IMG/VR virus record: IMGVR_UViG_3300037503_000007
Coordinates: 1 to 43,574 of that record
Reading direction: 5' to 3' (one strand)
DNA length: 43,574 nucleotides
Origin: a virus
A model generated the notes under the pieces. The model made no database searches. It had not been told where the DNA came from and saw only the letters and a program-made list of their open reading frames with translations. Shown here one piece after another: positions 9,153-29,113 of this stretch; the stretch's first letter is position 1, and each line of letters begins with the position of its first letter. The position numbers and the translations under genes were made by a program.

Positions 9153-9860
9153 TCACGCGCGCTTCTCGCCCCGGTACATGCCCGCGCCCACCTCCGCAAT
9201 CTTGCCGAACGGCACGATCGGGACGGTGAGGCGCGCGCGCGCCTCGGGCTTGAGAAAGTAGATGTAGCGGAGCTGGTGCCCGGGGACGATCCGGGCGCCG
9301 ATGTCCAGGAACGGCTTGAGGGTCGCGGCGCCGCCGAGGGTCACGCCGTAGCGTCGGGCGACGTCGTGGCGCTTCGGGCCCGACGTGTCGGTGAGGACCA
9401 TGCGGGTGTCGCGGTAGCCGTCCGGGAACTCCACGATCTGCTCGTTGGCCTTGATCGCGGTGAGGACGAAGCCCGCCGCCCGGTAGATCGTTCCGTCCCC
9501 GCACTGCGTCGCGTCGGCGAACGAGATCACCCATTCGAGTTGAGGGTAGTGCTTCCGGAGAAGCCGGAACGCGACCGCCATGGCCCGGCTTTCGCTGTTG
9601 CGCGGCAGGCGGTCCGAGAACGCCATCCGGTTTAGCTCGATGAACCCGTGCCACGGGGTTCCGGCGACGAGGCCCTGAATCTTGCGCTTGTCGAGGGACG
9701 GGCCGAATTGCATGGCGCCCTCAAGCCGGCCGTCAAGGAACACCCCGAGGTGAACCTGGCTGTTCTGCACCACCCGGCCGCTGTAGTGGGTTGCCTTCAC
9801 CATGCGAACGGCGTCGGCCGCGGCGATCGGCGCCACCCGCAGGTCCTTAGCCGACGCCAT
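9153..9860 (-). CDS. Mom-like DNA modification protein (GNAT fold)
   Basis: The 235-residue protein resembles the Mom family, named for the phage Mu protein that modifies adenines and so blocks host restriction. Family-like blocks are visible: an early ATHYSGR (about residues 20-27), LGVFLDGRLEGAMQFG (about 37-52), the FIELNRMAFSDRLPRNSESR region (about 73-93), and WVISFADATQCGDGTIYRAA (about 110-130). I chose ATG 9860 because it gives MASAKDLRVAP at a position consistent with the ParB gene end (14-base overlap). The pairing with a ParB/Srx-type gene just upstream is common in phages. It differs from Mu Mom in length and in the C-terminal 50 residues. Catalytic activity is inferred from family only. 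Confidence 0.78.
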   Translation of the reverse strand: MASAKDLRVAPIAAADAVRMVKATHYSGRVVQNSQVHLGVFLDGRLEGAMQFGPSLDKRKIQGLVAGTPWHGFIELNRMAFSDRLPRNSESRAMAVAFRLLRKHYPQLEWVISFADATQCGDGTIYRAAGFVLTAIKANEQIVEFPDGYRDTRMVLTDTSGPKRHDVARRYGVTLGGAATLKPFLDIGARIVPGHQLRYIYFLKPEARARLTVPIVPFGKIAEVGAGMYRGEKRA

Positions 9861-10551
9861 GTTGCCCGTGCCCGGTGAGGAAGGTCTCGACGATCCGGGC
9901 AAGCGCGTTCCCGTTGCTGTTGTCGTTCGGACTGTCGGTGAACGGGCCCATGGCCTTCGCCACCTCGATCGCCGCCTTGACCTGCTCGGCTTGATCGTCG
10001 TGCAGGGCGAACGTCATCTTCTGGAACGGCTCCCGATCGCCGTCCGCCAAGTCGGGCATTTCGGTCACGTCGGCCGCGCCCATGATCGTCTTAAGCTCGT
10101 CGGCGCCGAAGGCCGTCATGGACAGGTCGAAACCCATGGACGTGAGGTCCGCGAGTTCGATCCGGAGAAGCTCGAAATCCCATCCGGCGTTAAGGGCCGA
10201 CTGGTTGTCCGCGAGGATGTAGGCTTTGCGCTGCGCCTCCGACCATCCCGTGCAATCGATCACGGGCACGTGGCCGTCCGGCAGTACGGCGCCCGCCGGT
10301 GTCCGGATCGAGCCGCCCGCGGAGTAGATCTCCGTCGCCGCGGCATGACGGCCGTGGCCGGCCACGATCCCGTCGGCGTCGGCCAGAATGGGGTTCGTCC
10401 ACCCGAACTCGGCGATCAAGCCGCGGAGTTGCGCCACCTGGTCGGCGGAATGGGTCCGGGCGTTCCCGGGCGTGGGCTTGAGCGCCGCGATCGGGCGGAG
10501 CTCCACGCGATAGGCGGCGACGTCGGCCGCCGCGGTGTCTTGGTCTTTCAA
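9847..10551 (-). CDS. ParB/Srx-like domain protein (phage ParB-type nuclease/adenylate fold)
   Basis: The 234-residue protein has a ParB/Srx N-terminal domain: LRPIAALKPTPGNARTHSAD (about residues 18-37), QLRGLIAEFGWTNPILADAD (about 42-62) and the GHGRHAA box (about 66-72). Such proteins occur next to terminase genes in many phages and are not chromosome-partition ParBs. Some are fused to, or work with, DNA methyltransferases. The C-terminal half ends in a conserved-looking NSNGNALARIVE segment. The start is TTG 10551, supported by GGAGGGGGGG about ten bases upstream. It is translationally coupled to the Mom-like gene. I do not link it to the ParA at 16517, whose likely partner is the RHH protein. 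Confidence 0.8.
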   Translation of the reverse strand: MKDQDTAAADVAAYRVELRPIAALKPTPGNARTHSADQVAQLRGLIAEFGWTNPILADADGIVAGHGRHAAATEIYSAGGSIRTPAGAVLPDGHVPVIDCTGWSEAQRKAYILADNQSALNAGWDFELLRIELADLTSMGFDLSMTAFGADELKTIMGAADVTEMPDLADGDREPFQKMTFALHDDQAEQVKAAIEVAKAMGPFTDSPNDNSNGNALARIVETFLTGHGQHGVG

Positions 10552-12388: not shown

Positions 12389-12464
12389 TGGTGCCGGCGC
12401 CATGGGATCGAACCTGGGACCGCCCGCTTACGATGCGGGTGCTCTACCGCTGAGCTACGTCGGC
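12389..12464 (-). tRNA. tRNA-Thr, anticodon CGU
   Basis: Read on the minus strand, 76 bases fold as a tRNA: acceptor GCCGACG/CGCCGGC, D-stem GCTC/GAGC with loop AGCGGTA, anticodon stem CCCGC/GCGGG with loop ATCGTAA (anticodon CGT in DNA), T-loop TTCGATC, discriminator A and an encoded CCA. It would read ACG threonine codons, which are common in this genome. Two defects are visible: an A-C mismatch at position 5-68 and an extra base that bulges from the T-stem (CCAGG against CCATGG). It may be functional or a decaying copy. Confidence 0.8.
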
Positions 12465-14450: not shown

Positions 14451-15023
14451 TCAGTGAAGGGCCCGGTGCGGGGCGGAGCGCGTTCCGCTTGGCTCCCCAC
14501 GATCGCGGGTGATCAGACCGGCCGTAGGCATCGCACCGAAAGGGGCCGGCAAGGCGCACGGCCCGGCCGGGAACTCGGACCAAGACCCGAAGCCGTAGCG
14601 GTGCTTCGGACAGGTCGGATGATCGTCATGGCGCCGGCGGCTCGGGCGGTCCCAGGAACCGCCGCGGGTGGTGCCGAGATAGGTCCATCCGGACGCCCGA
14701 AGGCTTGCGCCGCTTTCGGTGTCGAGGATGTAGGTCAGGCCGCGCCGGTATCCCTTCGCGACGGCGGCACGACGGGCCGCGGCGTAGAGCATCGAGCAGG
14801 CGTTGAACGTGCCATCGGTGCACAGGCGGGTCACCTCGACGGTCAAGCCGTCGTCGAGGGCAGATGCGACCGGCCGGCCGACGATCGCGACGCCGACCAG
14901 GCGCCCTTCCCCGTCCTGGACCCCGTGTTGCCACAAGGCCCCCACGGGGGGCTTGTGGTGCCGGTGGTGCTCCCGGACGAAGGCGAAGGCTTGCCGCTGC
15001 GACAGCGGCCGCAGCTCGATCAC
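14451..15023 (-). CDS. XF1762-type protein (GNAT-like acyltransferase fold)
   Basis: The 190-residue protein shows a pattern known from the XF1762 family in phages and mobile elements: FVREHHRHHKPPVGALW (about residues 14-30), LVGVAIVGRPVASALDDG (about 40-57), EVTRLCTDGTFNACSMLYAA (about 61-80) and SLRASGWTYLG (about 105-115). Members are predicted to have a GNAT-like fold; substrate unknown. GTG 15023 is chosen because it gives VIELRPLSQRQAF, the usual family start, and overlaps the upstream stop (GTGA). The upstream in-frame extension is atypical and Arg-rich. The last 40 residues are unlike the family core. Confidence 0.82.
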   Translation of the reverse strand: MIELRPLSQRQAFAFVREHHRHHKPPVGALWQHGVQDGEGRLVGVAIVGRPVASALDDGLTVEVTRLCTDGTFNACSMLYAAARRAAVAKGYRRGLTYILDTESGASLRASGWTYLGTTRGGSWDRPSRRRHDDHPTCPKHRYGFGSWSEFPAGPCALPAPFGAMPTAGLITRDRGEPSGTRSAPHRALH

Positions 15024-15244: not shown

Positions 15245-15391
15245 GGGTGCTCCGGGTTTGTGTGGTCGACGCGGGGCCGGTCTTTCATCGGCCGCTTAGC
15301 GGCACTCGGCTGGCGCTGATGCGACTTGGCGCGCGCAACAGAGGACTCCCCGGCCCTACCGTCCTGGGGGTCCACCGCGTCGATTCGGGAA

Positions 15392-15429
15392 GCTTGCATG
15401 CCCGCATGCGGGCATGTCGGCATGCAAGC
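15392..15429. repeat. Octamer array A: four GCATG boxes in 8-bp register
   Basis: GCATG occurs at 15396, 15404, 15412 and 15420, exactly 8 bases apart. The outer arms GCTTGCATGCC and GGCATGCAAGC are perfect inverted repeats, and CCCGCATGCGGG (15401-15412) is a perfect palindrome inside. The array lies just 3' of the recombinase gene (stop 15435). It matches arrays B, C and D in box and spacing. Confidence 0.9.
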
Positions 15430-15434
15430 CAATT

Positions 15435-16409
15435 TCAGAGGATGCCGGCGCCGGCGTGGTTTCGGAACTCACGGGCGCGGCGATCGTAAAGCTTGAGGGT
15501 CCGGATGTCCCGGTGAAGGGTTACGTCCATCACCCTGAGCATGTCGGCGCCGTTCGCGAGCGCCTCGGTCGCGAAGCCGGCCCGCAAGCTGTGGCCGGCG
15601 AAATCGTCGACGTCGTAGCCGGCAAGGCCGGCGTAGTGCTTGACGATGTTCGCAACCGACCGATCGCTAAGGCGCTCGCCGACGCGCCCGCCTTTCCGGA
15701 TCGACCGGAACACGGCGCCCTCGGTGATGCCCGCCGCGGTCAACCAGTCGTCGACCGCCCGGACGGGCTTGAGCTTCGAGCCGTTCGGAACGGCGATGGT
15801 CTGCCCCCTACCCTCCTGGTCGGTCTTGGACCGGCGGATATGGACCCGCAGGCCTTCGCGGGCGCGATCAAGGTCCGGGACGTCGAGGGCGACGATGTTC
15901 GATCGGCGCTGCGCGATGGCGAAGCCCAACAGCAGCAGCGCCCGATCGCGAATGCCGATCAGGGTCTCGGGCACGTGCCCGAGCATCTCGCGCAAGGTGT
16001 CGGCCACGGCCGGCGCCTTCTGCTTGACGCTCGCCCCGATCGTGCGGCGAAGGCCGCGCATCAGGGACTTGACCACCTCGGCGTTCGTCGGCGGTTCGCG
16101 GCCGACCCGGCGGTGCGCGAAGGCGATGGCCGCCGCGCGCCGGTCAATGGTCGAGACCTTCAGCCCCTTGTGTGCACATTGCGTCAGGTAGAGGGCTACG
16201 GTCTCGATCTCGGCCGGGAGGCAGCAAAGGCGGTGCCCGTCGCACCAGCCCTTGAAGTCCCGGAAATCGGATTCATAGGCCCGGCGCGTGGCCGGGGCAG
16301 TCTCGGCGAGCACGAAGCCATCGGCGGCGTCGCGCAGCGCGTCCAAGGCTTCATCGTCGACGTCGACGAGCTCGCCCGCCGGCGACCACGGCACCGGCAG
16401 ATTGTCCAA
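15435..16409 (-). CDS. Tyrosine recombinase (Cre/Xer-like integrase)
   Basis: The 324-residue site-specific recombinase has an N-terminal SAM-like DNA-binding domain (TRRAYESDFRDFKGWC near residues 40-56) and a C-terminal catalytic domain. Active-site residues can be placed: Arg in GFAIAQRRSNIVAL (about 170), Lys in RRSKTDQEG (about 195), His-x-x-Arg in GHSLRAGFAT (about 270-280), His in LHRDIRTLKLYDRR (about 300), and the Tyr nucleophile in the same stretch. The start is TTG 16409 with GAGGAG six bases upstream. It faces away from parA across octamer array B and has array A at its 3' end. The context favours multimer resolution of a plasmid prophage, but integration is possible. Confidence 0.93.
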   Translation of the reverse strand: MDNLPVPWSPAGELVDVDDEALDALRDAADGFVLAETAPATRRAYESDFRDFKGWCDGHRLCCLPAEIETVALYLTQCAHKGLKVSTIDRRAAAIAFAHRRVGREPPTNAEVVKSLMRGLRRTIGASVKQKAPAVADTLREMLGHVPETLIGIRDRALLLLGFAIAQRRSNIVALDVPDLDRAREGLRVHIRRSKTDQEGRGQTIAVPNGSKLKPVRAVDDWLTAAGITEGAVFRSIRKGGRVGERLSDRSVANIVKHYAGLAGYDVDDFAGHSLRAGFATEALANGADMLRVMDVTLHRDIRTLKLYDRRAREFRNHAGAGIL

Positions 16410-16453
16410 GGTCGCTCCTCGGCGTTTAATCCCGGGGCTTTACCTGCCCGTAA

Positions 16454-16509
16454 CCGGCATGCCTGCATGCTTGCATGCCGGCATATCAGCATGCCGGCAT
16501 GGAAGGATG
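16454..16509. repeat. Octamer array B: six GCATG boxes plus one degenerate, upstream of parA
   Basis: Boxes start at 16457, 16465, 16473, 16481 (GCATA), 16489 and 16497, with GGATG at 16505 as a degenerate seventh, all exactly 8 bases apart. The array ends 7 bases before the parA ATG (16517) and lies between the divergent recombinase and parA genes. It therefore covers the likely parA promoter/leader. Expected role: autoregulation and/or centromere. Confidence 0.92.
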
Positions 16510-16516
16510 CACCCCT

Positions 16517-17179
16517 ATGAAGATCATCGTGATTGCGAGCCAAAAGGGAGGCGCGGGGAAAACCACCCTCGCCGTCCACATGGCCGTGACGGCCGCCATG
16601 GGCGGTTTCCGCGTCGGCCTCATTGACCTTGACCCGCAGGCCTCCGCGACCAAGTGGGGCCGCCGGCGGCTCCGCGCCGGACACGCGCCCGAGATTGCGG
16701 TGACCGCCACGACGGCCGAACTCCTGGGCGGCGTCGTCGACGGGGCCCGCGCCTCCGGTGCGGACCTACTGCTGATCGACACGGCGCCGAGCGCCGATAG
16801 GGCCTCGTTGGTCGCGGCGCGGCTCGCGGACTTTCTCTTGATCCCCGTCCGGCCGGCAACCTTTGACCTTGAAGCGATCGAGGCGACCCGCGACGTGGCG
16901 GAACTCGCCCGACGCCCCGCGGCCGTCGTCATCAATGCGGCGCCGGTGCGCAGCAATATCGTGACCGAGGCGAGCGATGGCCTCGCCGCGGCCGGCGCCA
17001 CCATGGCACCGATCATCATTCACCAGCGCGTCGCGTTCAGCCACCCCATAGGCAACGGCGGTACGGCCATGAACTACGAGCCCGGAGGTAAGGCCGAATG
17101 CGAGGTTAGCGCCTTAACCCTGTGGGCATGCGGGCAAGCGGGCTTGCTTCCATGCGGGCATGCCGGCATTCCGGCATGA
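16517..17179 (+). CDS. parA: ParA-type partition ATPase (type Ib, no HTH)
   Basis: The 220-residue Walker ATPase has a deviant Walker A KGGAGKTT (residues 10-17, signature lysine at 10), Walker A'/switch LIDLDPQASATKW (about 38-51) and Walker B LLIDTAPSAD (about 83-92). The absence of an N-terminal DNA-binding domain makes it a small type Ib ParA, which normally works with a tiny RHH centromere-binding partner, here the next gene. It should bind nucleoid DNA and move the plasmid-prophage copies apart. The last 25 residues (WACGQAGLLPCGHAGIPA) are encoded by octamer array C and look like repeat-derived sequence rather than a normal ParA end. A longer start at 16475 would be translated through array B and is unlikely. 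Confidence 0.92.
   Translation: MKIIVIASQKGGAGKTTLAVHMAVTAAMGGFRVGLIDLDPQASATKWGRRRLRAGHAPEIAVTATTAELLGGVVDGARASGADLLLIDTAPSADRASLVAARLADFLLIPVRPATFDLEAIEATRDVAELARRPAAVVINAAPVRSNIVTEASDGLAAAGATMAPIIIHQRVAFSHPIGNGGTAMNYEPGGKAECEVSALTLWACGQAGLLPCGHAGIPA
17123..17178. repeat. Octamer array C: seven boxes at the parA/RHH boundary
   Basis: Boxes sit at 17126 (GCATG), 17134 (GCAAG), 17142 (GCTTG), 17150 (CCATG), 17158 (GCATG), 17166 (GCATT) and 17174 (GCATG): seven in strict 8-base steps, four of them degenerate. The array overlaps the last codons and the stop codon of parA and ends 18 bases before the ATG of the RHH gene. Confidence 0.88.
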
Positions 17180-17196
17180 TCGGGGGGAGGGAGCAC

Positions 17197-17478
17197 ATGG
17201 CCAAATCAGCACGTCGCCCGCCGGTTTTCCCGGCGACCGACCAGCCCGCTACGGCGTCGCCCGCGATGCCGGACACGCCGGCGAACACGCCGCCGCCGCG
17301 GTCGCAGCGCCCACCATCACGCCAGGGCAAGCGCCAGATCTCGCTTTCCGTCGACCCCGAGGTGCACCGGCAGCTTCGGACGTTGGCCGCCAAAGAGGAC
17401 AAGAGCCTCGAAGCTCTCGGCAAGGAAGCCCTAAACCTACTGTTCGCGCAGTACGGGCTGGCGAGGATCGCCGCTTAG
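17197..17478 (+). CDS. Ribbon-helix-helix DNA-binding protein, probable ParA partner
   Basis: The 93-residue protein has a disordered N-terminal tail (residues 1-43, Pro/Ala/Arg-rich) and a C-terminal RHH domain: beta strand KRQISLSVDPEV (about 45-56), helix 1 RQLRTLAAKEDK (about 58-69), helix 2 LEALGKEALNLLFAQYG (about 71-87). This layout, a flexible tail before an RHH fold encoded directly after a small ParA, matches ParG/omega-type centromere-binding proteins. The start ATG 17197 has GGGAGG upstream. MetJ, another RHH protein, binds tandem 8-bp boxes, which fits the octamer arrays. Autoregulation is therefore likely; binding is inferred. Confidence 0.87.
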   Translation: MAKSARRPPVFPATDQPATASPAMPDTPANTPPPRSQRPPSRQGKRQISLSVDPEVHRQLRTLAAKEDKSLEALGKEALNLLFAQYGLARIAA

Positions 17479-22160: not shown

Positions 22161-22551
22161 CGATCGGGCTCTCGGGCCCGCCGATCATCACGTGGCCGCC
22201 CGCATCATGGCCCGCCGCCGCGAGCTGCAGGTCCGCCAAACCTACGTGGCCCGGATCGTCGGCGTGAGCTTCCAGCAGTTCGGGAACTACGAGCGGGGCC
22301 TCGATCGGATCACGGCCGGCCGGCTTTGGCAGATCGCCGGGGCGCTCGGCGTGCCGGTAGCCTACTTTTACGAGGGCCTGCCGGTGGTCGCCGGCGACGT
22401 CCCGGCGCCGCCGCCGGCGCCGGCGGCAGGTGGCGGCGCCACCAGCGCGCCACGGCGCCTGCCAGGGTCCGCCCCCAAAGGGCCCGCCAAGCCTTCACCC
22501 TCCAAGCGCGCACGAAAGCGTTCAGCAGCCGCCGCCGGCGGGGCGGCGTGA
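22135..22551 (+). CDS. XRE-family transcriptional regulator, repressor candidate
   Basis: The 138-residue protein has an N-terminal HTH of the XRE/HTH_3 family: HHVAARIMARRRELQVRQ (about residues 18-35), VARIVGVSFQQFGNYERG (about 39-56, recognition helix) and ITAGRLWQIAGALGVPVAYF (about 60-80). The last 55 residues are Pro/Ala/Lys-rich and basic. ATG 22135 has GGGGAG upstream. This fold is common in prophage repressors and in alphaproteobacterial regulators. It is transcribed with the HerA-like ATPase (stop and start overlap as TGATG). Confidence 0.9.
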   Translation: MKKIKRKPSDRALGPADHHVAARIMARRRELQVRQTYVARIVGVSFQQFGNYERGLDRITAGRLWQIAGALGVPVAYFYEGLPVVAGDVPAPPPAPAAGGGATSAPRRLPGSAPKGPAKPSPSKRARKRSAAAAGGAA

Positions 22552-25073
22552 TGGCGCGTAGGTCGACGAAAGCCGCCGCGGCGCCGGCGACGATCGCCCC
22601 CCGTGTCGTCACGATCGGAAAACTCGCTGATGGTGGCGGTCCCGCGACCCTCGACATTGACGTACTCCTGACAACGCGGCTCGGCATTCAGGCGATCAGC
22701 CGCGCCGGCAAAAGCGCGACCATCCGGACGATCTGCGAGCAAAGCTTCGGTCTAGTCCAGCATATCATCCTGGACGGCGAGGGCGAATTCTACACTCTGC
22801 GCGAAAAGCACCCCTATGTGCTTGCCGGTGACGACGGCGACTTTCCGGTGACGGTGGAGAACGCGGAAGCTCTCGCCCTCGCCCTCCTTGAGCACGGCTT
22901 GTCCGCCGTCGTGAACCTTCACCCGCTGCGCATGGGCGCCCGTCGCATCTTCATCGCCCGCTTTATCGAGGCGATGATCGCGGCGCCGCAGCGCCTATGG
23001 CACCCGGTCCTCGTCGTGATCGACGAGGCGCAAAAGTACGCCCCGGAAGGGGCGAAGGTTGAGAGTTCGGAGGCGATCGTCGACCTGATGGACCAGGGCG
23101 GCAAGCGCGGGTTCGCGTGCATCCTCGCGACGCAGCGCCTCGCCCGCCTTCACAAGGATGCTTCGGGGGGGCTCGCGAATTGGCTGCTCGGGTTGGTGGT
23201 CCAGGACGTCGACCGCCGGCGCGCATGCAGCTACCTCGGGTTCACGCCCGGGTCGGCCGAGGGACGGTCGCTTGCCGATCTGGCGGCGGGGACCTTTTAC
23301 GGCGTGGGCCCGGCGATCACGCAGAAGCCGGCGCTCATCCGCATCGCCCGCCCCGAGACCACCCACGTCAAGTCCGGCGAGGCCTCGGCGCCGACGCCGC
23401 CGGCGCCCGCGGCGATGAAGGAGCTTTTCGCCGCGCTGCGCGCCGCGGCCGGGCCGGTGGACGAGGAACGGGGTCGACTCGATACCGACCGCGATTGGCG
23501 GCCGGGCGCGACGTCGCCGGCGCCGGCCGCCCCCCGGGCCGCGCCCGACGAGATCGCCGCGGCGGTACGAAAGGGCACCGAGACCGGAATGGTGATCGGG
23601 GACCAGCAAGGCTACGAGCGGGGGCGGCGGGAAGCCGAGGACGTCGCGGCCGTGACCTTCCTTCGCCTCCACCAGCAGAGTCTCGAGCTTGCCCAGGCGG
23701 CCCAGGCTTTGGCCGCCGAGGCCGGCGCCTGGTTGCGCGGGCACGGCTGGATGGAGGCCCCTACGGCGCCCGTAGGCGGCCCGGCGCCCGCGCCGGCCCT
23801 CCCCGGGCCCGCAAGCCGCGCCCCGGGCCCTACGGCGCCCGTAGGCGGCCCGGCGCCCGCGCCGGCCCTCCCCAGGCCCGCAAGCCGCGCCCCGGGCGCT
23901 ACGGCGCCCGTGGCGGCCCCCGCGGCCCCGAATGGCGCGGATGGCCCGGCGCCCGCGCCGCGGGCCCCTAAGGGCCGCGGCGGGCGGTCCCGGATGGGGA
24001 TGGCGCCCATGCCCGGGACCGCCACGATCACCGACCGCCTCCTTGCCACGCTGACCCGGCCGCGAACCTGGGCCGAGGCCGCGGCCATCGCCGGCGTGAC
24101 CCCCGAGACGCCCCGGGTCCGCCAAGCGCAAAAGAAGCTCCGTGAGTCCGGGAAGGTGCGCGACGTCGGCGGGGTGGTGACGGCGATCGACCCGCCGGCG
24201 GCGGCGATCGACGACAGCCCCGCCGCGGTCCGCGCGACCTGGATGGCCCGGCTCGGCGAGGTGCCGGGCGAGATCCTCGCTGCTCTTGCCGATCGGTCGG
24301 ACGGCCTCCCGGTGGACAAGTCGACGGTGGCGGAATGGGCCGGCCAGAAGGCGGGCACGCCGCGATTCCGCGAGGGCCTTCAACTCTTGCGGCGGAACGG
24401 TGCGATCCTGGAGTCACGGCATCGCGTGCAGCTCACCCCGCCGTTCGGCGGGAAGGGCGGCGACATAGGCGCGGAGGAGGACGGGGCGTCGGCCGCGGCG
24501 GCCGATCATCGGCAGACCGAGGCGCGGCGCCCCGCGGCCGAGCGGCCGGCGCGGAAGCCCGCGGCCGAGCGGCCGGCGCCGTCCGCGGCGGCCGACGCCG
24601 GCGGGCAACGCGGGATGGTCCTGAACGCGATCGCTTGGGCCGAGCGGTCGGGAATCCTCGCGGTCCGCGAACTCGTGGCGGTGATCGTCGGCATGCAACC
24701 GGATTCGCCGGTGCTGCGCATGCAATTGCGGAAGCTCGAAACCGCCGGTCTCGTGACGACGGCCGCGGACGGGGCGGTGCTCCAACTGACCGACAAGGGG
24801 CAGAGCCACGCGACCGTCCCCGATCGCCCGCTCGATCACGCCGCCTTGGTCGAGGCGGCCCTCGGCCGGATGCCGAAGCAATCGGGCGCGATGCTCCGGG
24901 AGCTCGTCCGTGTCCACCCGAAGCGCGTCGACCTTCCGACGCTCGCCAAGCGGCTCGGCATGGACCCGGACTCGCCAGTGGTCCGGATGAACGCCGGCCG
25001 GCTTCACAAGCTCGGTCTCGCGACCGACCCGAAGGCGCCGCCGATCGCGGCGTCCGACGTGCTTTTCCCGTGA
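22551..25073 (+). CDS. HerA/VirB4-like ATPase with tandem winged-helix-like C-terminal segments
   Basis: The 840-residue protein starts at ATG 22551, overlapping the XRE stop. Residues 1-300 form a HerA-like (DUF87/DUF853-type) ATPase: P-loop-like QAISRAGKSATIR (about 47-59, the usual first glycine is absent), LDGEGEFYTLRE (about 74-85), Walker B PVLVVIDEAQKYAP (about 152-165) and GFACILATQRLARLHKD (about 188-205). A 69-bp tandem repeat encodes a Pro/Ala-rich linker (about 400-460). The rest contains at least three winged-helix-like segments (e.g. ITDRLLATLTRPRTWAEAAA and GMVLNAIAWAERSGILAVRE). HerA ATPases translocate DNA, so a replication, segregation or mobilisation role is plausible; unproven. 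Confidence 0.83.
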   Translation: MARRSTKAAAAPATIAPRVVTIGKLADGGGPATLDIDVLLTTRLGIQAISRAGKSATIRTICEQSFGLVQHIILDGEGEFYTLREKHPYVLAGDDGDFPVTVENAEALALALLEHGLSAVVNLHPLRMGARRIFIARFIEAMIAAPQRLWHPVLVVIDEAQKYAPEGAKVESSEAIVDLMDQGGKRGFACILATQRLARLHKDASGGLANWLLGLVVQDVDRRRACSYLGFTPGSAEGRSLADLAAGTFYGVGPAITQKPALIRIARPETTHVKSGEASAPTPPAPAAMKELFAALRAAAGPVDEERGRLDTDRDWRPGATSPAPAAPRAAPDEIAAAVRKGTETGMVIGDQQGYERGRREAEDVAAVTFLRLHQQSLELAQAAQALAAEAGAWLRGHGWMEAPTAPVGGPAPAPALPGPASRAPGPTAPVGGPAPAPALPRPASRAPGATAPVAAPAAPNGADGPAPAPRAPKGRGGRSRMGMAPMPGTATITDRLLATLTRPRTWAEAAAIAGVTPETPRVRQAQKKLRESGKVRDVGGVVTAIDPPAAAIDDSPAAVRATWMARLGEVPGEILAALADRSDGLPVDKSTVAEWAGQKAGTPRFREGLQLLRRNGAILESRHRVQLTPPFGGKGGDIGAEEDGASAAAADHRQTEARRPAAERPARKPAAERPAPSAAADAGGQRGMVLNAIAWAERSGILAVRELVAVIVGMQPDSPVLRMQLRKLETAGLVTTAADGAVLQLTDKGQSHATVPDRPLDHAALVEAALGRMPKQSGAMLRELVRVHPKRVDLPTLAKRLGMDPDSPVVRMNAGRLHKLGLATDPKAPPIAASDVLFP
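23761..23911 (+). repeat. 69-bp tandem repeat in the ATPase gene
   Basis: CTACGGCGCCCGT begins at 23761, 23830 and 23899, a period of 69 bases (23 codons) with two nearly identical full copies and a truncated third. It encodes a Pro/Ala-rich flexible linker and keeps the frame. Confidence 0.9.
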
Positions 25074-26995: not shown

Positions 26996-27244
26996 ATGTG
27001 GCGAGGCCGCCTGAACCCGGGCATCCCGCCGCGGGCCTTTCCGGAACCCGACGACGTTCTCGCGTTCAGCGACCCCGCGCGCGACGGGCCCGAGGTGATG
27101 CGATTGTCGAACGCCTTTATGAGAGATGAAGCCGTCGAACTCCCCGGCCGGCCAGGGCGCTGGCTCGTGACCGCGATCGACGTCGTGGGGGGTTGCGACG
27201 GAACCCTTGTCGAGGTGGAGATCGTGGCGGTTCCGCCCCACTGA
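26996..27244 (+). CDS. Hypothetical small protein, last gene of the rightward operon
   Basis: The 82-residue product starts at ATG 26996, two bases after the previous stop. It contains PPRAFPEPDDVLAFSD and a beta-rich RWLVTAIDVVGGCDG segment. No family is recognised. Octamer array D begins 10 bases after its stop. Confidence 0.62.
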   Translation: MWRGRLNPGIPPRAFPEPDDVLAFSDPARDGPEVMRLSNAFMRDEAVELPGRPGRWLVTAIDVVGGCDGTLVEVEIVAVPPH

Positions 27245-27254
27245 AAAGGCCCGC

Positions 27255-27278
27255 CCGGCATGCGCGCATGCCGGCATG
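27255..27278. repeat. Octamer array D: three GCATG boxes, far from parA
   Basis: GCATG at 27258, 27266 and 27274, exactly 8 bases apart (CCGGCATG, CGCGCATG, CCGGCATG). It lies in the convergent intergenic region between the rightward operon and the lysis genes, beside a strong terminator and 10 kb from parA. Confidence 0.85.
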
Positions 27279-27291
27279 CCTGAAACGCGAA

Positions 27292-27333
27292 AAGCGCCTC
27301 GCCGGGGCCCCGGGGGGCCGCGGCGAGGCGCTT
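27292..27333. terminator. Strong convergent terminator at the end of the late and early operons
   Basis: AAGCGCCTCGCCG (27292-27304) pairs perfectly with CGGCGAGGCGCTT (27321-27333), 13 bp, with an inner G/C hairpin. On the minus strand TTTTCGCGTTTC follows. It ends the leftward lysis genes and may also stop the rightward operon. Confidence 0.8.
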
Positions 27334-27362: not shown

Positions 27363-27479
27363 CTATGGTCGGGGCGCCGACCTCCGGCGGCAAACCTTGC
27401 AGGGTGTGAGTCCGATGATCGGAAAACCCACCGGAGGCGGCGACGTTCCCGACTGAGGGCCTATTTCCACGCGCATCAT
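27363..27479 (-). CDS. Very small CxxC protein candidate, 38 residues
   Basis: A short frame starts at ATG 27479 (or 27476) with AGGAGG about 11-14 bases upstream and ends at TAG 27363. It encodes MMRVEIGPQSGTSPPP... and a C-terminal TPCKVCRRRSAPRP with one CxxC pair. It lies between the holin-like gene and the terminator in the same direction. Coding status is uncertain. Confidence 0.35.
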   Translation of the reverse strand: MMRVEIGPQSGTSPPPVGFPIIGLTPCKVCRRRSAPRP

Positions 27480-27542: not shown

Positions 27543-27779
27543 CTACGGTGATCCGAAAGGCCACCAGCTCGGGCGCGACGCCAGGAACCAGGCGCCGGCG
27601 GCCGATGCGATTGCCGCGGTCGGCACGTGCTTTTTGAGAAGCCCGAAGGCCGCCCTCGCCAGCTTGCGCCGCTCGTCGCGGCGAATGTGCTCCTCGTAGA
27701 GCTTGGCCACCATGGGGGCCATCCCTTCAACGAGGGTCTCGACGCGCTCCAGGCGCTCGCCTTCGGATCGTTCGCTCAT
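27543..27779 (-). CDS. Small membrane protein of the lysis cassette (XhlA/holin-like)
   Basis: The 78-residue product begins with an amphipathic, coiled-coil helix (RLERVETLVEGMAPMVAKLY, about residues 10-29), a basic RRDERRKLARAA stretch and one C-terminal hydrophobic helix (VPTAAIASAAGAWFLAS). This layout resembles XhlA-type lysis proteins. It is the third gene of the lysis cassette after the endolysin and the lipoprotein. Holin function is inferred from layout only. Confidence 0.6.
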   Translation of the reverse strand: MSERSEGERLERVETLVEGMAPMVAKLYEEHIRRDERRKLARAAFGLLKKHVPTAAIASAAGAWFLASRPSWWPFGSP

Positions 27780-27845: not shown

Positions 27846-28526
27846 TTACTCGGCTTCGACCGACGCGGCCGACGCGCCGGGCTCGAACGGGATCAGGGCC
27901 GACGCCTTCGATCGGATTCCGTCCTCGCCCCCGAGCCACTTGATCGCCTGCGGGGTGAGCTCCTCGACGCCCTTTTGAGCGATCCAGGCCAGCATCGAGT
28001 TCCCGACGTCGACCGTCACGGCTTGACCCTCGACGGCACCTTGAACGGCGGTGTAGGCGCGGCCGACGAGCTCCTGCATGCGGCGCTCGTTCATCCACAT
28101 GCGCAGGAACGCGCCGATCGGCCCGGGCACGAGGGTCACCAGGTAAAGCCCTAGCGGCGTGAGGACCGGCATCAGGATCGAAAACCACCGCAGCAAGTCG
28201 TCGCCCCAGTGGTAGGTCACGGGCGCCGCCGGCGGGGCCGCAACGGTCACCTCGATCTTCGGCGCCGGCGACGCCGCGGCAGGAACCGGAAGCGTCGGCA
28301 CGGCCGCCGGCGCGATCGGCTCGGCGAGGGCTTCGGCGACGAAGGCCGGGGCGGCCGGCGCCGGCCGGCCGACCACCGGGGCCTTCACGGTGGCGACGGC
28401 CTCGGGAAGGGCCGCCGCAGCCGCGATCGGCTCGGCGACCGTGGGCTTGCCGAAGCCGAACTGCGGGACGCAGGCGGCCGAAAGGCCCGCCGCGAGGACC
28501 GCGGCGGCGAGGAGGAGGCGACGCAT
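27846..28526 (-). CDS. Lipoprotein with internal transmembrane helix, lysis-cassette protein (spanin- or holin-like)
   Basis: The 226-residue product begins with a lipoprotein signal (MRRLLLAAAVLAAGLSAAC, lipobox cysteine at 19). A Pro/Ala-rich, extended periplasmic stretch runs to about residue 105, followed by a hydrophobic helix (FSILMPVLTPLGLYLVTLVP, about 115-134) and about 85 further residues with a helical LVGRAYTAVQGAVEGQ segment. An outer-membrane lipid anchor joined by a linker to an inner-membrane helix is the layout of unimolecular spanins. The C-terminal helical part also resembles LL-H-type phage holins. ATG 28526 has GGAG upstream. Confidence 0.6.
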   Translation of the reverse strand: MRRLLLAAAVLAAGLSAACVPQFGFGKPTVAEPIAAAAALPEAVATVKAPVVGRPAPAAPAFVAEALAEPIAPAAVPTLPVPAAASPAPKIEVTVAAPPAAPVTYHWGDDLLRWFSILMPVLTPLGLYLVTLVPGPIGAFLRMWMNERRMQELVGRAYTAVQGAVEGQAVTVDVGNSMLAWIAQKGVEELTPQAIKWLGGEDGIRSKASALIPFEPGASAASVEAE

Positions 28527-28567: not shown

Positions 28568-29113
28568 TCAGGCCTCGTTCGTCGAGACCGGGCCGGCGGC
28601 CGACAGCGCGACGCGGCGCACGTTCGCCGGCTGCGAGACGCGCCAAGGCGCGCGGCGTGCCGCGACGAGGCGGGCCTTCTCGACGGGCACGATGCAGACC
28701 TGATCTTTTTGATTGCCGCCGAGGACGTAGAAGCGGGTCGCGTCCTCGCCGACGTAGAGGCCGACGTGGCCGGCCGTGCCGCCGCCCGGGAGCTTCCGCT
28801 GGAACACCAGGACGTCGCCGAGCATCGGGACGGCGGCCGGGTTGCCCCACGTCGCCCAATTCAGGGCCCAAAGGGCGTTGCCCTTCGGCTGGTGCGGCCA
28901 CCCTGCACGGAGGGCCCACACCGACACCGTAAGGCCGCACCATGCGATCGAGTCGCCGGTGTAACCCTTGGCCCCGGTCTCGCGGGCCCACGCCATGATT
29001 GTCGGGTTGTTCCCGGCCCCAGCCGTCTCGTGGGTTCCGAAGGTCTTGAGGGCCTCGACAAGCATCTTCGGCCCGGGCTCGCGGGCGAGCCAGGCATAAG
29101 CGGGGGGCAGCAT
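28568..29113 (-). CDS. Endolysin, TIGR02594/NlpC-P60-like peptidoglycan hydrolase
   Basis: The 181-residue protein has the papain-like layout of TIGR02594 phage hydrolases: MLPPAYAWLAREPGPKM at the N-terminus, catalytic Cys in IAWCGLTVSVWAL (about residue 60), GDVLVFQRK (about 98-106) and catalytic His in GHVGLYVGED (about 115-124). ATG 29113 is chosen since GGAG lies upstream; an earlier ATG at 29134 sits inside the T-run of a terminator. It should cleave peptidoglycan peptides at lysis. No signal peptide is present, so release needs a holin. Confidence 0.85.
   Translation of the reverse strand: MLPPAYAWLAREPGPKMLVEALKTFGTHETAGAGNNPTIMAWARETGAKGYTGDSIAWCGLTVSVWALRAGWPHQPKGNALWALNWATWGNPAAVPMLGDVLVFQRKLPGGGTAGHVGLYVGEDATRFYVLGGNQKDQVCIVPVEKARLVAARRAPWRVSQPANVRRVALSAAGPVSTNEA

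Follow-up and report, generated by a model that had tools for sequence, protein, structure and literature searches.

Centromere sites in phage-plasmid N15 are dispersed around its genome. On plasmid pSM19035, six dispersed parS arrays serve the ribbon-helix-helix (RHH) system (PMC9499535). There, one dimer binds each repeat and two repeats are enough for high affinity, whereas three contiguous repeats fail to activate the ATPase of ParA, for which at least four are needed (PMC9499535). The TP228 centromere is made up of repeated boxes separated by spacers, and an operator accompanies it (PMC7308502). In Miko, an additional five-repeat parS has been found directly downstream of repA (PMC7157519).

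The locus described here belongs to an IMG/VR virus record (43,574 bp, 70% GC), which was analysed over its whole length and is called the window in the following. It carries a ParA-RHH cassette, three arrays of palindromic octamers close to this cassette (A, B and C) and a fourth, array D, far from it. With a probability of roughly 0.55, judged from sequence, D would be a real RHH site that works as a short auxiliary centromere.

The phage genome and its ParA-RHH cassette

The window encodes HK97-type head genes, a portal, a terminase and a tape measure. Its structural genes are encoded on the minus strand in two stretches, one running from about 8.0 kb to the left end and the other from the right end to 27.5 kb, and this arrangement suggests that they form one late operon on a circular map. 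No overlap was found between the two ends of the window. Further genes encode two Mom-like DNA modification family proteins (PHROG 1384) at 9153–9902 and 14451–15023 (minus strand), the former adjoining a gene for a ParB-like/methyltransferase-family protein (9847–10551), and a tRNA-Thr (CGT) at 12389–12464 (minus strand). An operon on the plus strand, opened by an HTH_3 protein, includes an 840-aa protein (22551–25073, plus strand) with weak matches to HerA/DUF87 and to terminase-like ATPases. When close relatives of the window were sought, ParA led only to L003 and, weakly, to L004, the RHH protein led to none, and no relative of the HerA-like protein at 22551–25073 was found in viral contigs.

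ParA (16517–17179, plus strand) is a type Ib, ParF-like protein of 220 aa that matches PHROG 164 (E 3.6e-36) and Pfam AAA_31/CbiA, and its best PDB match is ParF of TP228 (4dzz, E 1.4e-13). This small protein begins with MKIIVIASQKGGAGKTT, that is, directly at the deviant Walker A motif, and has no N-terminal DNA-binding domain. Directly downstream of parA, rhh encodes an RHH protein of 93 aa (17197–17478, plus strand) that reaches 56.7 bits for Pfam Antitox_RHH, against a cut-off of 27.2. Its N-terminus is flexible and proline-rich, and the AF2 model has a confident two-helix core with pLDDT above 90. Foldseek matches of the RHH fold include StnY, Arc, CopASO and ParG, with weak E-values and probabilities of 0.8–1.0. 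The RHH protein is the predicted centromere-binding protein, and the cassette is of type Ib (ParF/ParG-like), the centromere and operator role of its boxes being predicted from their presence only.

Array A (15395–15426) has four octamers and a degenerate fifth at 15387. It sits at −1.1 kb from parA, with the 3′ end of the integrase gene on one side and the genes leftward of it on the other. Array B (16456–16511), with seven octamers, occupies the divergent gap between integrase and parA, a position conserved in the family, and is presumed to be the main centromere and operator. Array C (17125–17180), also with seven octamers, extends over the parA 3′ end and the beginning of the rhh leader, and its position (+580 to +640) has a homologous, conserved place in the family. 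The tyrosine recombinase/integrase gene (15435–16409, minus strand; PHROG 1 integrase, Pfam Phage_integrase) lies between A and B and is flanked directly by them (15387–16511); array A may also matter for recombination. Translation continues through array C, which encodes the C-terminal tail of ParA, and the family arrays at +580 to +640 encode the end of ParA as well, so the sequence of this tail is dictated by the DNA site.

Relatives of ParA with an RHH gene behind parA were found at about 60 loci. Autocorrelation around parA peaks at 8 bp in the closer relatives. The boxes fitted de novo vary by locus (GCATGC, GTATAC, ACATGT and, in another register, TGTCGACA), and the array positions are constant, at 25–260 bp before parA and at about +580 to +640 at the parA 3′ end. 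A further array is frequent about 0.9–1.0 kb downstream, behind rhh, and the layout of A, B and C recurs in most of 55 fitted loci. Since the arrays recur at constant positions across loci, the period-8 geometry of the boxes is tied to the ParA-RHH family independently of the window. The period-8 box rule thus provides a fast computational finder of centromeres for this family.

Array D and its chance level

The earlier note had claimed a fourth array with the same box and spacing about 10 kb from parA, and the present analysis bears this out. Array D consists of three contiguous palindromic octamers, GGCATGCG, CGCATGCC and GGCATGCC, at 27257–27280; the stretch 27255–27280 reads CCGGCATGCGCGCATGCCGGCATGCC. 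This position follows the palindromic register, and 27255–27278, given before, denotes the same array shifted two bases to the left. The GCATGC cores at 27258, 27266 and 27274 are separated by exact 8-bp steps and all three are perfect (6/6). In register and sequence D is the same as arrays A, B and C, and its start lies 10.7 kb from the start of parA.

Any hexamer present exactly three times at 8-bp spacing is confined, in the 43.6 kb, to D and part of B (16457). The sequence GCATGCNNGCATGC occurs five times in the window against 0.01 expected, every copy being within A, B or D. A symmetric box matrix was trained on the 18 boxes of A–C, with D left out. By this matrix D scores 31.4 bits, the best place of the window outside the arrays scores 5.4, and simulated windows (n = 180; order 1, 3 and 5) peak at 20.0 bits. 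An exact order-1 Markov calculation gives 4.4e-7 D-like sites expected per window. D is not a chance match.

Among 2.9 million viral contigs, the exact GCATGC triple was found in 13 stretches only. Five of the contigs concerned have one coding repeat in common and two are microsatellite-like. A ParA-RHH cassette was looked for and not found in three exact-triple contigs (G010–G012), and the remaining ones contain no RHH in the DNA examined.

Surroundings of array D

The last plus-strand ORF ahead of D (26996–27244; 82 aa, no family found) has its stop 13 bp before the array. The last late gene (27543–27779, minus strand) faces D from the other side; its 78-aa product has no family match, shows by eye an N-terminal coiled coil and a membrane segment, and is perhaps holin-like. 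At 12 bp from D, a strong hairpin (27292–27333) with 20-bp arms, 95% complementary, has TTTT behind it on the minus strand and is the probable terminator of the late operon. The convergent gap beside a terminator that had been described for D is therefore present, with the qualification that D also lies inside a second terminator-like hairpin of the minus strand. On that strand, D itself can fold as a bulged hairpin whose stem ends in GCCTTTT, for which the terminator scanner made no call, and 27255–27274 is a perfect inverted repeat.

Convergent DNA makes up about 17% of the intergenic DNA of the window (993 of 5,732 bp), so the convergent position of D is, taken alone, only mildly unusual. 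A scan covering promoters of the sigma-70 type found none near D. GC skew shows no switch at D. In Rfam, nothing in the D region reaches the gathering score and the matches are weak and sub-threshold. The DNA that separates the terminator from the last late gene contains, in addition, an inverted repeat, CCTCCGGCGG and CCACCGGAGG, with 37 nt between its arms (27379–27439), to which weak sub-threshold Rfam matches alone correspond.

The protein encoded at about 25322/25622–26425, which flanks D, had no relative in the collections searched, named phages and plasmids included, and no named phage matched the protein at 27846–28526. A search with the NlpC-like protein at 28568 led to 44 loci, none of which has a ParA-RHH cassette or a GCATGC pair in the DNA examined. 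No close relative of the window that includes the D region turned up.

Distant arrays in other phages

Five viral contigs constitute the GTATAC set, for which the matrix was trained only on proximal boxes. Four of the five carry distant arrays, 4–26 kb from parA: at +4.2 kb in G013 (29.6 bits), at −26.1 kb (30.8 bits) and −3.6 kb (23.5 bits) in G014, at −26.5 kb in G015 (26.1 bits) and at −26.3 kb in G017 (28.6 bits). The null maximum for these contigs is 15.7 bits (60 simulations per contig). G015 and G017, which are related phages and are counted as one lineage, have additional arrays 1.4–2.0 kb upstream. With the cognate matrix the distant scores are 26–31, whereas non-cognate matrices mostly give values under 18. 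The exceptions are one score of 20.8 (the window) and two of 23.4 (G014), and they arise partly because the boxes resemble one another. At about −25.5 kb from parA in G014, near its GTATAC array, the ACATGT matrix trained for another phage reaches a score of 23.4.

In G015 and G017, the distant array lies over the stop codon of a gene, with a tail gene on the opposite strand facing it; the G015 gene matches CI-like repressors. Comparison of the two phages revealed 21 invariant nt at the distant array, while the downstream flank has diverged. The array of G014 has a head-closure gene on one side and a tail gene on the other. The far arrays of these relatives are short too, with 3–4 boxes. Gaps with distant arrays are convergent, tandem and divergent, so the function shared by the distant sites is not that of a promoter operator.

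The GTATAC pair is absent in 14 other viral contigs with related ParA. A distant array was sought and not found in G016 and in several other relatives, indicating that it is not essential to the system. In G001, a 61-kb phage whose ParA is 54% identical, arrays 22–28 kb away are suggestive only, since a second fit failed to recover the box. Among plasmid and genome contigs, the distant arrays of L163, L164, L135 and L136 pass the 5% null, in contigs that may hold further partition genes, and count as supporting evidence only. In L164, a Sphingomonas gellani contig, seven arrays of the TGTCGACA/GACATGTC type are dispersed around one ParA-RHH cassette, between −7.5 and +2.8 kb from parA. L180/G002 has about ten period-8 arrays over 1 kb downstream of rhh (parA +1.0 to +2.0 kb), far above the other relatives.

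Possible roles of array D

Because the same box and spacing occur at a negligible chance level and cognate arrays lie far from parA in other phages, D is well supported as a target of the RHH protein, which very likely binds it in the cell. Partition is somewhat favoured as the main role of D. In the mechanism proposed, the long arrays B and C (and also A) would be filled with RHH dimers, which would repress parA-rhh and build the main partition complex. D would be occupied by a few dimers as well and may loop with the A–C complex, or add to it, as ParA moves the prophage genome. D occupies a convergent gap close behind a stop codon, where binding would upset no obvious promoter. Computation establishes the array, its chance level, the family of ParA, RHH protein and period-8 boxes, and the recurrence of cognate distant arrays in other phages, while the occupancy of D, its looping and any contribution to stability are inferences.

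The suggestion that D is a second centromere is plausible for an auxiliary site and not for a full centromere. D has three boxes, while the related pSM19035 requires four (PMC9499535), so D is probably not a stand-alone centromere. By the same threshold, the three-box D should bind the protein yet not drive partition alone, whereas A (four boxes), B (seven) and C (seven) should do so. Counting against an auxiliary centromere, the window has an integrase and no confidently identified replication initiator, and the plasmid lifestyle of this phage is a supposition.

The main and serious rival, in itself rather unlikely, is that D is an RHH-operated transcription element, acting as a roadblock or insulator between convergent early (plus) and late (minus) transcripts or sharpening late termination, and tying the level of the partition protein to the lytic programme. 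As this explanation would have it, D is situated within the convergent gap, 13 bp past the last plus-strand stop and 12 bp from the late terminator, and the distant array of G015 and G017 over a stop codon (that of a CI-like repressor in G015), with a tail gene opposite, is consistent with it. So is the plus-strand operon of the window, which starts with an HTH_3 protein. A precedent from N15 is provided by a title, ‘the sop system ... facilitates late gene expression’, cited in PMC11652158. It lends some support to the earlier idea of an RHH influence on late transcription, which is weakened by the location of D at the end of the late operon and not at its start. Moreover, the sigma-70-type scan found no promoter at D. 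The gaps that hold other distant arrays are tandem or divergent, and a convergent roadblock therefore cannot be the general role. It is quite unlikely that phages with type Ib ParA-RHH generally hold, at a regulatory boundary, a short and distant RHH array dedicated to it (the boundary being the end of a repressor gene or a convergent late terminator), which would couple the partition complex to lysis-lysogeny, the RHH level sensing the prophage state and gating transcription there.

D might also be explained without any RHH protein, as a mere hairpin stem that gives the late operon a second intrinsic terminator and whose likeness to the RHH boxes is coincidental. Its minus-strand hairpin does end in GCCTTTT, and the perfect inverted repeat at 27255–27274 points the same way. 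Nevertheless, palindromic octamers make hairpins anyway, and a hairpin needs no third box in exact 8-bp register; since the third box of D is exact, a pure terminator stem is unlikely. The match to the A–C matrix, expected 4.4e-7 times per window and without another such site in this one, and the cognate distant arrays of G014, G015 and G017, which are not obvious perfect inverted repeats, render this explanation very improbable. A decoy, a titration or incompatibility site, or a relic of a former array without a present role would agree with the shortness of D and with the relatives that have no distant array at all. However, the three cores of D are perfect (6/6), unlike decaying boxes, and its counterpart in G015 and G017 is kept as an invariant block, so such an idle site is improbable.

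An auxiliary centromere would be the simplest role for D, and the shortness of the far arrays and their mixed gene contexts fit a role in DNA architecture better than an operator role. If the arrays bind, they offer a simple route to ask whether the partition complexes of phage-plasmids are looped or multi-site, and also whether partition proteins feed back on lysogeny.

Comparison with known partition systems

The cassette resembles the type Ib delta-omega system of pSM19035, which likewise has a small ParA and an RHH protein, contiguous short repeats that bind one dimer each, and several arrays per replicon (PMC9499535). The repeats of pSM19035 are 7-bp non-palindromic heptads, whereas the boxes of the window are 8-bp palindromes; its arrays comprise 7–10 repeats over promoters, whereas D has three behind a stop codon. 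The type Ib system ParF-ParG-parH of TP228 is similar in its proteins, ParF being the closest solved ParA (4dzz) and ParG being among the RHH fold and profile matches. Unlike the window, TP228 has tetramer boxes with AT-rich spacers. We know of no distant array in TP228.

The actinophages RedRock and Miko also carry parAB on a phage genome and have two parS loci made of eight copies of an 8-bp motif (PMC7157519). In contrast to the boxes described here, those copies are termed direct repeats, and the extra sites are near parAB or repA and not 10–26 kb away. The sop system of phage-plasmid N15 has several separate sites for its partition protein, IR1–IR4 (PMC7205306), as does the window with its candidate sites by sequence, D at +10.7 kb and A at −1.1 kb. 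SopB, however, is a member of the F-type HTH family, being 49% identical to F SopB, and each of its sites is a single inverted repeat, whereas the window combines an RHH protein with octamer arrays.

Dispersed centromeres (N15), an extra parS in a phage (Miko, PMC7157519) and multiple RHH arrays on a plasmid (pSM19035) were thus already known. As far as the literature consulted shows, short, far-off, non-promoter RHH arrays in phages are new: several phages carry them many kb from the par genes and away from obvious promoters, one being conserved at the stop codon of a repressor gene.
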